From Acidobacteriota bacterium (GTDB lineage Bacteria; Actinomycetota; Acidimicrobiia; Acidimicrobiales; Microtrichaceae), in assembly GCA_003577145.1 (NCBI GenBank), contig QEUP01000003.1:62001-126000 (forward strand): a DNA stretch of 64,000 nt. The letters run 5' to 3'. Shown here one piece after another: positions 47,640 to 50,716 of this stretch; the first letter of the stretch is position 1; each line of letters begins with the position of its first letter. The notes beneath the pieces were generated by a model. It saw only the letters and a program-made list of their open reading frames with translations, had not been told where the DNA came from and did not search any database. A program made the translations under genes and the position numbers.

Positions 47640-47736
47640 GCCGTCGCCGACGATTGGTGGCCCTGTCGTGGTGAGGTTCGGATAGCCTCGGACCACCCAT
47701 CACGGCCACCACCGAGCAACCACAGGGGTAGGACTC

Positions 47737-48273
47737 ATCGAAGATGTAGAGAAGCTCCTCGAGTCAGCCACCGAGGCTGATCTGCCGTCGCTCTCGCTGG
47801 ACGACGTTCGCGGACTGCGCAACGAGTGCCAAAGGGTCGAGTCGGCGTTGTCGTACGCGCGGCGGCTGGCCCAGGGACGCCTCGACATAGTGGGAACGGA
47901 GCTCAAAGCACGTCAGGAGGGTCGGGCTCCGGCCGAGACGCGCGAGCTCATAGCCAGGCTTCCCGACATCCTTGCCGAGGGAGGACGGGGCCCGGGCCGA
48001 CCACGGCCACCCCAGGACCTGGAACCGCCGGCCCTGGCTGTAGAGCTCACCGCCGAGCTCGATGAGCTGGTCAACGCCGCCCAGCTCGGGTCCCTCAAGG
48101 ACCAGTCGATCGACGAGTTGAGCGCGCTGGCCGACCGGCTCTTCGCCTGGGAGCGGAGGGTCTCGGAGCAGCGTCACCGGGTCCATGACCTGATCGACGC
48201 ACTGCAGGCCGAGATGAAGGTGCGTTACCAGTCCGGAGGGGCGTCGGTGGAGGACCTCCTCGGGGATCGTTGA
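47737..48273 (+). CDS. RsiG-like anti-sigma protein with c-di-GMP-binding motifs; non-canonical start
   Basis: About 178 residues, largely helical. Two helices carry the pattern E(x3)S(x2)R(x3)Q(x3)D known from RsiG, the c-di-GMP-dependent anti-sigma factor for WhiG. The first is exact (E35, S39, R42, Q46, D50). The second has a histidine for Gln (E139, S143, R146, H150, D154). The linker is rich in Gly/Pro. No ATG, GTG or TTG lies between the in-frame stop at 47683 and the TTG at 47848, which would cut the first motif. An ATC at 47737, 5 nt after GGGGTAGGA, is the best-placed start; CTG 47782 is an alternative. A TAGCCT -10 box lies at 47683-47688. Confidence 0.78.
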   Translation: MEDVEKLLESATEADLPSLSLDDVRGLRNECQRVESALSYARRLAQGRLDIVGTELKARQEGRAPAETRELIARLPDILAEGGRGPGRPRPPQDLEPPALAVELTAELDELVNAAQLGSLKDQSIDELSALADRLFAWERRVSEQRHRVHDLIDALQAEMKVRYQSGGASVEDLLGDR

Positions 48274-48337: not shown

Positions 48338-48823
48338 ATGAAGGAGGAGCTCGACAAGCGCTGGCGTGACCTCGGTGAGTTCATACGGGAACAGCGCAAG
48401 GTCGGCCAGCTCTCCCTCCGCAAGCTGTCGGACATGGCCGGTATCTCCAACCCGTACCTGTCCCAGATCGAGCGGGGCCTGCGGAAGCCCTCGGCTGAGA
48501 TCCTCCAACAGATCGCCCGTGCGCTGGAGATCTCCGCCGAGACTCTCTATGTTCGGGCCGGGATCCTCGACGAGCCCACCGAGGTGTTCGACCTGGCGGC
48601 CGAGATCCGCCGTGATCCCCATCTGGGCGAGGAGCAGAAGAAGACGTTGATCCGCATCTACGAGTCGTTCCGCAAGGAGGCAGACATCGAGGCCGGCCGA
48701 TCCGCTCAGGGTTCCGACGGTGCCGGCGAAACCGGACCCGGCCCGGAACGGGGCGTCGGCGAGGGCCCGACTGTCGGTGCCGCTGTCGTCGATTCCGAAC
48801 CACCCGCTGCACCCGCCCGATGA
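48338..48823 (+). CDS. XRE-family transcriptional regulator
   Basis: 161 residues. The HTH_3 domain is at about 11-72 (LGEFIREQRKVGQLSLRKL, AGISNPYLSQIERGLRKPS, EILQQIARALEI). A short helical linker and a Gly/Pro/Glu-rich disordered tail follow. There is no cupin or peptidase domain. The ATG is 7 nt after a -10 box, so the mRNA is probably leaderless. A 21-bp-phased direct repeat with an internal palindrome covers the promoter and likely binds the protein itself. It follows the RsiG-like gene by 64 bp. Confidence 0.9.
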   Translation: MKEELDKRWRDLGEFIREQRKVGQLSLRKLSDMAGISNPYLSQIERGLRKPSAEILQQIARALEISAETLYVRAGILDEPTEVFDLAAEIRRDPHLGEEQKKTLIRIYESFRKEADIEAGRSAQGSDGAGETGPGPERGVGEGPTVGAAVVDSEPPAAPAR

Positions 48824-48952
48824 CCTGGTTGCGGGCGCTCCATTGGGTGAGCGGTTGGGTGCAGGCGCCGTGTGCCGCGCGAGTGAGCTGGTGAGGTTTC
48901 GGGCGGGACACCGGCGGGAATCTGTTCCCGCAGGTGGTTGTTGAGGCAGATC

Positions 48953-50167
48953 GTGCGCACCCTCGCTGTCCTGTCGATGCACACATCGCCTCTGGCCCAA
49001 CCGGGTTCGGGCGACGGTGGCGGGATGAACGTGTACGTGCGCGAGCTGGTGACCGCGCTGGCTCAGGCCGGAGTCGACACCCGCGTCTACGTCCGGCGAT
49101 TCGCCGCAGATCTCGACGAGGTCATCGACGTCGAGCCCGGCTTCAGGGTCGTGCAGGTGCCGGCCGGGGATCCCGCCATCGCCAAGGCCGAGTTGCACGA
49201 GGTGGTAGACGAGTACACCGAGTGGGTCTACGAGGACCTGCGTCGCAGCGGCGACGTCGACGCCATCCATGCCAACTACTGGCTGTCGGGCCTGGCAGGT
49301 CACCGGCTCAAGCACCGTCTCGAGCTGCCGCTCATATCGACGTTCCACACGCTGGCTCGGGTCAAGGCCGAGCGCGGCGACCCGGAGCCCGCGCTGCGAG
49401 CAGCGGCCGAGCAGGAGGTGATCGGCTGTTCCGACGCCATCACCGCCTCGAGTACAGCCGAAGCTGCTCAGCTCCAGCGTCTCTACGGGGCGCAGACCGA
49501 GAGGATCGAGATCGTCCCTCCCGGCGTCGACCACGCGTTCTTCTCGCCGGGTGATCGCCGCGGGGCTCGTCGGGCGCTGGGCCTGGGTGCTGATCCGGTC
49601 CTGCTGTTCGTGGGCCGCATTCAACCGCTGAAAGGCGTCGACGTGGCGATCTCGGCCCTCGCCGAGCTCGACGACGGTACGGCCACGCTTCTCGTCGTGG
49701 GCGGCCCCAGCGGTCCCGACGGTCACACCGAGGCGGCGCGGGCACGAGCGCTCGTCGAGGAGCTGGGGCTGGCTCGTCAGGTGCGATTCGTGCAGCCCCA
49801 GCCTCATCACCTCCTGTCGACCTATTACCGGGCGGCTGACGTCTGCCTGGTGCCGAGCCGGTCGGAGTCCTTCGGGCTGGTCGCTCTCGAGGCAGCCGCG
49901 TGCGGAGCTCCCGTGGTTGCCGCCGCGGTCGGCGGCTTGCGCACTCTCGTGGACCACGGCCGGACGGGCTTCTTGGTGGATGGGCGGGACCCGACGGTCT
50001 ATGCCGCCTACGCCGCCGAGGTGCTGGGGAACCCCTCACTGGCCGGGCAGCTCTCGGGTGAGGCAGCGGCCGTGGCGCGGCATTTCACCTGGTCGACGAC
50101 GGCGGCCCGGCTCCGGCGCGTCTACGCGGACCTGGCGGCCCGCTCGCTGGTTCTCTGCGCGGCTTGA
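48953..50167 (+). CDS. mshA: D-inositol-3-phosphate glycosyltransferase (mycothiol synthesis)
   Basis: About 404 residues, GT4. The diagnostic N-terminal SMHTSPLAQPGSGDGGG followed by MNVYV is the MshA/sucrose-synthase-like donor loop. The C-terminal domain has LLFVGRIQPLKGVDVA and the E-x7-E SRSESFGLVALEAAACG. It joins UDP-GlcNAc to inositol-3-phosphate, the first mycothiol step. The GTG at 48953 has GAGG 5-8 nt upstream; a longer frame starts at 48938. The next gene is YbjN-like, the same order as mshA-Rv0487 in mycobacteria, which supports the assignment. Confidence 0.9.
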   Translation: MRTLAVLSMHTSPLAQPGSGDGGGMNVYVRELVTALAQAGVDTRVYVRRFAADLDEVIDVEPGFRVVQVPAGDPAIAKAELHEVVDEYTEWVYEDLRRSGDVDAIHANYWLSGLAGHRLKHRLELPLISTFHTLARVKAERGDPEPALRAAAEQEVIGCSDAITASSTAEAAQLQRLYGAQTERIEIVPPGVDHAFFSPGDRRGARRALGLGADPVLLFVGRIQPLKGVDVAISALAELDDGTATLLVVGGPSGPDGHTEAARARALVEELGLARQVRFVQPQPHHLLSTYYRAADVCLVPSRSESFGLVALEAAACGAPVVAAAVGGLRTLVDHGRTGFLVDGRDPTVYAAYAAEVLGNPSLAGQLSGEAAAVARHFTWSTTAARLRRVYADLAARSLVLCAA

Positions 50168-50260
50168 GCGGTCGGCGGCGGTGCTCGATGTGGGGCAGTG
50201 TCGTGGCGAACCGAGCGCAGTTTGGTGAGACGAATCCCTTGGCGCTAGAAGCTTGAGCCG

Positions 50261-50716
50261 ATGACGGACGCGGCGACGCCCGAAGAGCTGGCTACGGTGG
50301 CGCGCCTGGTCGACGTGTGGCTCGAACAACAGCTGGAGGCCAATCCCATCGTGGCCGGCGTCGAGTGTGACCACAGTGGTGACCGGGTCTGGTTCGTGAG
50401 GCTCCGGGGGGAGCAGAAGCCCAACTTCGCGGTGTGGTTCAGGCTGCGCCAGCGGACGCTTCACTTCGAGACCTACTTCACCCCTGCGCCGGAGCGAAAC
50501 CAGCAGATGTTCTACGAGCACCTGCTTCGTCGCAACCTGAAGATGTACGGGGCGGCCTTCGCCATCGGCGAGGAGGACGCAGTCTTCCTCCTGGGCAGGC
50601 TGCCTGTCTCCCAGGTCGATGAGGCCGAGTTGGACCGTGTGCTCGGCTCGCTCTACGCCTACGTCGAGCAGTACTTCCGGCCGGCGCTGCGGATAGGGTT
50701 TCGCTCCCCGCCATGA
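50261..50716 (+). CDS. YbjN-domain protein
   Basis: 151 residues. A two-layer alpha/beta protein of the YbjN family (DRVWFVRLRGEQKPNFAVWFRLRQRTL; TYFTPAPERNQQMFYEHLLRRN), related to type III secretion chaperones by fold. The cellular role is unknown. It follows mshA by 93 bp, as in mycobacteria, suggesting a conserved but unexplained link to mycothiol. Confidence 0.88.
   Translation: MTDAATPEELATVARLVDVWLEQQLEANPIVAGVECDHSGDRVWFVRLRGEQKPNFAVWFRLRQRTLHFETYFTPAPERNQQMFYEHLLRRNLKMYGAAFAIGEEDAVFLLGRLPVSQVDEAELDRVLGSLYAYVEQYFRPALRIGFRSPP

Follow-up and report, generated by a model that had tools for sequence, protein, structure and literature searches.

Bacteria seldom have conserved start codons outside the set AUG, GUG and UUG. 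The best-known cases are infC and pcnB, and infC of E. coli starts at a non-AUG codon. Near-cognate starts of an anti-sigma factor gene have been described in Listeria, where, according to PMC13068326, rsbW mutants selected under acid challenge and starting at ATA or ATT had raised SigB activity, reporter strength fell in the order ATG > ATA > ATT, and a change in the anti-sigma:sigma ratio was proposed. The anti-sigma factor RsiG is known in a twin-motif form from S. venezuelae (6pfj, 6pfv) and in a single-motif form from Rubrobacter and Thermoleophilia, which has the same helix and motif but acts as a homodimer (7lq2-7lq4; excerpts of PMC8325347). In the published Streptomyces and Rubrobacter systems, a c-di-GMP dimer is held by two RsiG motifs and WhiG is sequestered when c-di-GMP is high, and WhiG is freed when c-di-GMP falls; by homology, the same steps would be expected of the protein described here. 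The relevant section of PMC8325347 also reports twin-motif RsiG in three of four Acidimicrobiales species. RsiG outside sporulating Streptomyces was therefore already known, and the surprise with which a preliminary description of our locus greeted it in this lineage was misplaced.

The window (the whole stretch of DNA analysed, 64,000 nt) contains a gene with an intact frame of 178 codons that encodes a twin-motif RsiG (Table 1). Its product matched the Pfam family PF22802 at 81.6 bits (cut-off 27), and its best PDB sequence match was S. venezuelae RsiG, deposited as 'AmfC protein' (6pfj, E 5.5e-17, residues 6-175). An AlphaFold2 model calculated from 21 sequences (mean pLDDT 82.5) showed an antiparallel coiled-coil fold and was matched by Foldseek to 6pfv_T (TM 0.69/0.74, E 1.1e-6); the fold search returned four matches with E up to 0.001, every one an RsiG chain. 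A search of NCBIfam with the protein matched no family. Pfam, PDB sequence match and predicted fold thus agree with the earlier assignment of the protein as RsiG-like. The pattern E...S..R...[QH]...D occurs only twice in the six frames of the window, both times in rsiG, at the two places given in the preliminary description (the second with His for Gln). The protein resembles S. venezuelae RsiG in its twin motif, its predicted antiparallel coiled coil, its size (the latter is a 176 aa chain) and the presence of a WhiG gene in the genome. In contrast, it lacks a canonical start, has His for Gln in motif 2 and is 34% identical in the structural alignment; unlike the RsiG of Rubrobacter and Thermoleophilia, it has two motifs.

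Table 1. Features of the rsiG locus, in coordinates of the window
Feature	Position	Strand	Remarks
rsiG, twin-motif c-di-GMP-dependent anti-sigma factor	47737..48273	+	178 aa plus stop; proposed start ATC; PF22802, 6pfj, 6pfv
Proposed start codon ATC	47737..47739	+	34 codons 5' of motif-1 Glu
Rival start, in-frame CTG (residue 16)	47782..47784	+	first in-frame CTG after ATC; motif 1 kept
c-di-GMP motif 1 ESALSYARRLAQGRLD	47839..47886	+	residues 35-50
c-di-GMP motif 2 ERRVSEQRHRVHDLID, His at residue 150 for Gln	48151..48198	+	residues 139-154
Shine-Dalgarno-like AGGGGTAGGA	47724..47733	+	anti-SD pairing -7.6 kcal/mol for -20..-4
-10-like TANNNT hexamer TAGCCT	47683..47688	+	includes in-frame stop; putative role

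Both motifs are kept in an alignment of homologues. Across the 21 aligned sequences, 20 of them relatives, no substitution is seen at S39, R42, Q46, D50, E139, S143 or R146, and hardly any at E35, H150 or D154. His in motif 2, which had been presented as unexpected, is therefore the norm among those relatives. Counting its own genome each time, rsiG matches were found in 48 of the 61 genomes of the relatives search, in 198 of 295 genomes of the class and in 243 of the 396 searched across the phylum. Many of the weaker phylum matches span one half of the profile only. The genome contigs searched with the single RsiG protein yielded no relative, and a search of plasmids for rsiG gave no match. 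In motif 1, Asp commonly replaces Glu and His replaces Gln: the combination D-S-R-H-D, a variant of the published RsiG signature, is present in 38 of 170 class loci, with family f49 represented. The protein thus adds a member to an established family, and what is new is its apparent start usage.

The window copy of rsiG has no canonical start codon, that is, no ATG, GTG or TTG. Its frame follows an in-frame stop, TAG 47683, and the next in-frame canonical codon is TTG 47848, which lies inside motif 1 and would cut it; this part of the preliminary description was confirmed. From 47674 to 47743, none of the three codons occurs in any frame. Between the stop and CTG 47782, ATC 47737 is the sole in-frame codon of the set ATC, ATT, ATA and CTG. 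The ATC had been placed 5 nt after its upstream element; the actual gap is 3 nt after GGGGTAGGA (47725-47733) and 8 nt after GGGG.

We compared the start position across 170 rsiG loci of the class (30, 60 and 80 from three sets of searches, and part of all matches), measuring the codons from each start candidate to the Glu of motif 1. One locus was dropped (L030, whose contig ends 7 codons before motif 1), which left 169. A canonical codon lies 33-39 codons before motif 1 in 135 of these, and the ATC of the window lies at 34. The distance is not uniform: in 13 loci the only canonical codons at 20-55 fall outside 30-46, for instance at 22-29 in a number of f7 family members and at 51-55 in L170 and L204. 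In ten of the 169, namely the window copy, L145 and eight loci of f49, the codons 20-55 upstream include no ATG, GTG or TTG. Outside the class, none of 40 rsiG genes, drawn from among the listed matches at an E of 1.1e-22 or below, lacked a canonical codon at 24-50 upstream, where the presence of a codon does not prove it to be the start.

The other nine loci point to near-cognate codons at the same place. L145, from family f7 of the same order, has ATC at 33 after AAC; in L130 the same AAC is followed by ATG at 33, and L148 has ATG at 34. The eight f49 loci (L114, L140, L151, L152, L157, L159, L177 and L193) have CTG at 38, or at 39 in L159. The CTG at 38 is also kept in L117, L174 and L179, together with TTG at 43, ATG at 40 and ATG at 47, respectively, while in the remaining 22 f49 loci ATG or GTG stands at 38 (20 loci) or at 39-40 (two). 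Every one of the 11 CTG loci has A at -11, G at -9 and C at -2, and 10 have A at -12; the bases further upstream are little conserved except for C at -31 (10 of 11). AAAGG-like bases precede the CTG in most of them, L157 being without AAAGG. In L193 and L159 only four codons separate the stop from the CTG, which leaves little other room for a start. The 11 loci come from five genera and group together on the tree (one of 500 shuffles of the CTG label was as low); the best tree needs five changes to account for the label, of which well-supported branches force only one, so that the tree fits one origin as well as several.

These loci bear on the strongest alternative, an error in the sequence or consensus of a draft assembly, by which the true codon would be canonical and one base wrong. 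The assembly is in 68 contigs and represents the single genome of its genus in the comparison set, so that the window copy could carry one wrong base. However, such a change would have to create a start codon, given that none is found in any frame from 47674 to 47743, and error could not account for a CTG that 11 genomes from five genera share at one position, although this says nothing of the window copy itself. We regard an error as improbable. A nearby frameshift that merely moves a start into frame was rejected on the same absence of canonical codons in all frames, and the indel that the preliminary description had envisaged as restoring a normal start would itself have to create one.

Other genes served as a control. 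The window and 20 neighbourhoods yielded 317 accepted genes, of which 199 could be assessed (15 rsiG and 184 others), and in nine of the 199 no canonical start came within 12 codons of the position that homologues predict. Four of the nine are rsiG genes (the window copy, L210, L211 and L212) with no canonical codon upstream in frame. The five others have their nearest upstream canonical codon 15-24 codons above the predicted place and are probably misplaced predictions, and so each of the 184 other genes has a canonical start at the expected position or upstream of it. The four of 15 are not a rate, since the regions were chosen partly for an unusual rsiG; of their 21 rsiG genes six were left unassessed, five because they were not accepted (all with ATC or CTG) and one that was accepted but not assessable. 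Setting 10 of 169 rsiG against 0 of 184 other genes gave a Fisher p of 5e-4, a comparison of different samples under different criteria in which related genomes are not independent. Elsewhere in the window genome, infC likewise has no ATG, GTG or TTG between an in-frame TGA and the IF3 domain, and ATA stands at its likely start (L126, reverse strand, ~1733). The two genes are alike in their apparent near-cognate start, but RsiG is no translation factor, hence no autoregulation loop is implied.

The coding signal after the ATC speaks to a second alternative, a start at the in-frame CTG 47782 that would shorten the protein by 15 residues and keep motif 1. CTG does occupy the start site of related genes. 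However, residues 3-15 scored 11.1 against the N-termini of 24 relatives (mean BLOSUM62, ungapped), compared with a leave-one-out median of 14.2 and minimum of -2.6 among the relatives themselves, and this score was reached by one of 2000 permutations and none of 3000 random stretches of the window. The 24 were drawn from 29 relatives, leaving out L018, L019, L020 and L024 as near-copies and L030 as cut. The 13 codons before the ATC (the 15th to the 3rd) scored -17.0. Since residues 3-15 match the relatives and the upstream codons do not, coding begins before CTG 47782, near the ATC. In addition, the predicted model has a helix at residues 2-10, and no class locus has its sole canonical codon (within 18-55) at 18-20. 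A start at CTG 47782 is accordingly very unlikely. The in-frame CTG codons 3' of the ATC, of which this is the first, had gone unmentioned in the preliminary description.

The same genome carries the expected partner. As the preliminary description had proposed, it was searched for a WhiG-type sigma factor and for c-di-GMP genes, and both were found. A WhiG equivalog reached 376.4 bits against NF004935 (cut-off 343) and 325.8 bits against the sigma-factor chain of 6pfj, and 29 GGDEF and 22 EAL matches support a c-di-GMP network. By eye, whiG adjoins an ORF for an XerC/D-like recombinase. The genome also has a second sigma factor of the FliA/WhiG family (196.7 bits, cut-off 189.6; L003:1231-2124), which continues for ~60 C-terminal residues past the family match. 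Across 61 genomes, rsiG and an over-cut-off WhiG were both present in 39 and both absent in 10, with rsiG only in nine and WhiG only in three, the last being 75-83% complete (Fisher p 1.7e-4, kinship ignored). The best WhiG match in the 12 other genomes with an ATC or CTG rsiG was at 330-344 bits in 10, one passing the cut-off of 343; it was 275 bits in G224 and no more than 143 in G326, which is 81% complete.

This pairing argues against a third alternative, that rsiG is decaying and hardly translated in the window genome. Loss of the canonical start can be the first lesion of a gene, and 13 of the 61 searched genomes have no rsiG match. Against decay stand the intact frame with both motifs complete, the full WhiG kept in the genome and the tendency of rsiG to accompany an over-cut-off WhiG (12 mixed cases among the 61 genomes, again with kinship ignored). 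We consider decay a shade less probable even than the downstream CTG start.

A search for WhiG-type promoters, TAAA-N15-GCCGATAA, returned 40 sites with up to two mismatches compared with 33 for the reversed control, which is no clear excess, and no exact site at spacings of 14-16; we therefore claim no WhiG regulon. Surroundings were viewed at eight of the 15 loci returned. One-mismatch sites lie 5 nt before a histidine-kinase ORF (L051) and, by eye, 179-194 nt before a sigma-factor-like ORF (L053), either of which may be chance, and the ORF after the site at L061 had no Pfam match.

Upstream of the ATC, the pairing of the Shine-Dalgarno-like element with the anti-SD sequence was matched by 9% of random window stretches, and is thus weak evidence. 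The corresponding energies were -6.0 to -9.3 kcal/mol for the CTG group (5-23%) and -3.7 kcal/mol for L145 (45%). For near-cognate starts, such pairing is supportive at most. The -10-like TAGCCT lies 54 nt before the ATC, which predicts a leader of ~40 nt. A leaderless start at the ATC was considered and rejected, as the TAGGAC before it is without the consensus T and leaves 2 nt (by eye). It is barely credible that translation reads through TAG 47683 from GTG 47668 or 47671, the two in-frame GTG codons that precede it, or that the genetic code is changed, for these codons lie at 56-57, beyond the usual range, the 13 codons examined between stop and ATC are unlike RsiG N-termini, and the TAG belongs to the -10-like hexamer, TAGNNT preceding the start in several homologues; the codon reassignment suggested in the preliminary description found no support.

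Many other class members probably have no leader at all. A TANNNT hexamer lies 5-8 nt before the canonical start in 58 of the 135 rsiG genes with that codon at 33-39, compared with 0.8% at random places in the same loci, and in several homologues TAGNNT stands directly before the start. On this pattern, rsiG of the class is probably often translated from leaderless mRNA. Leaderless GTG starts are known in actinobacteria. On leaderless mRNA, according to a passage of PMC4611024, AUG cannot be exchanged for GUG, UUG or CUG. The near-cognate rsiG starts occur where a leader is likely, which fits this rule, whereas the putative leaderless GTG rsiG genes would not.

We consider it likely that the twin-motif RsiG of the window starts at ATC 47737 and is made in small amounts that would set the RsiG:WhiG ratio. 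ATC initiation had been one of the options of the preliminary description, and it gains indirect support from the position of the codon, the conservation of the N-terminus and the parallel cases. Translation would begin at the ATC with initiator tRNA on a short-leader transcript, helped by AGGGGTAGGA. As a near-cognate start would be inefficient, RsiG would probably be scarce, and its low yield would set the RsiG:WhiG ratio and, through it, how far c-di-GMP has to fall before WhiG is released. We infer that near-cognate starts are used by rsiG in the window genome and in two other, separate lineages, where they probably serve to keep the anti-sigma factor in short supply, as in the window genome. 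The Listeria rsbW mutants would be a parallel in that an anti-sigma factor gene has a near-cognate start (ATA or ATT) with a proposed effect on the anti-sigma:sigma ratio. In contrast to those changes, selected under acid challenge (PMC13068326), the rsiG codons occur naturally, and within one family several genera share the CTG.

More tentatively, near-cognate initiation of rsiG could have been selected for regulation, and more than once in this class. RsiG would then be scarce and dependent on start-codon proofreading by IF3, so that the WhiG threshold for c-di-GMP would follow the condition of the translation machinery, a proposal we think possible but on balance doubtful. The passage of PMC4611024 on this point lists AUC among the triplets that IF3 discriminates against and does not say so of CUG.

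A literature search on rsiG start codons, non-canonical starts of anti-sigma genes and near-cognate CUG or AUC starts found nothing on rsiG starts by title or abstract, its scope covering few of the subscription papers. In the available part of PMC8325347 'start codon' is used only for promoter searches, and in PMC2897130 'rsig' is the name of a primer. If the proposed start is correct, rsiG would show in nature how the strength of a start codon can set a sigma:anti-sigma ratio, since ATC or CTG marks the start site of this anti-sigma gene in three separate places of one class and the CTG is kept across genera. A further implication is that such RsiG proteins would be truncated or missed by gene callers restricted to ATG, GTG and TTG, with motif 1 cut in the present case, and this may distort surveys of the family.

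The region 3' of rsiG (48338-50716) encodes an XRE-type HTH regulator, an MshA-like glycosyltransferase and a YbjN-like protein. The glycosyltransferase scored 370.8 bits, below the MshA cut-off of 462.5. The order rsiG-HTH-glycosyltransferase is also seen, by eye, in L030.
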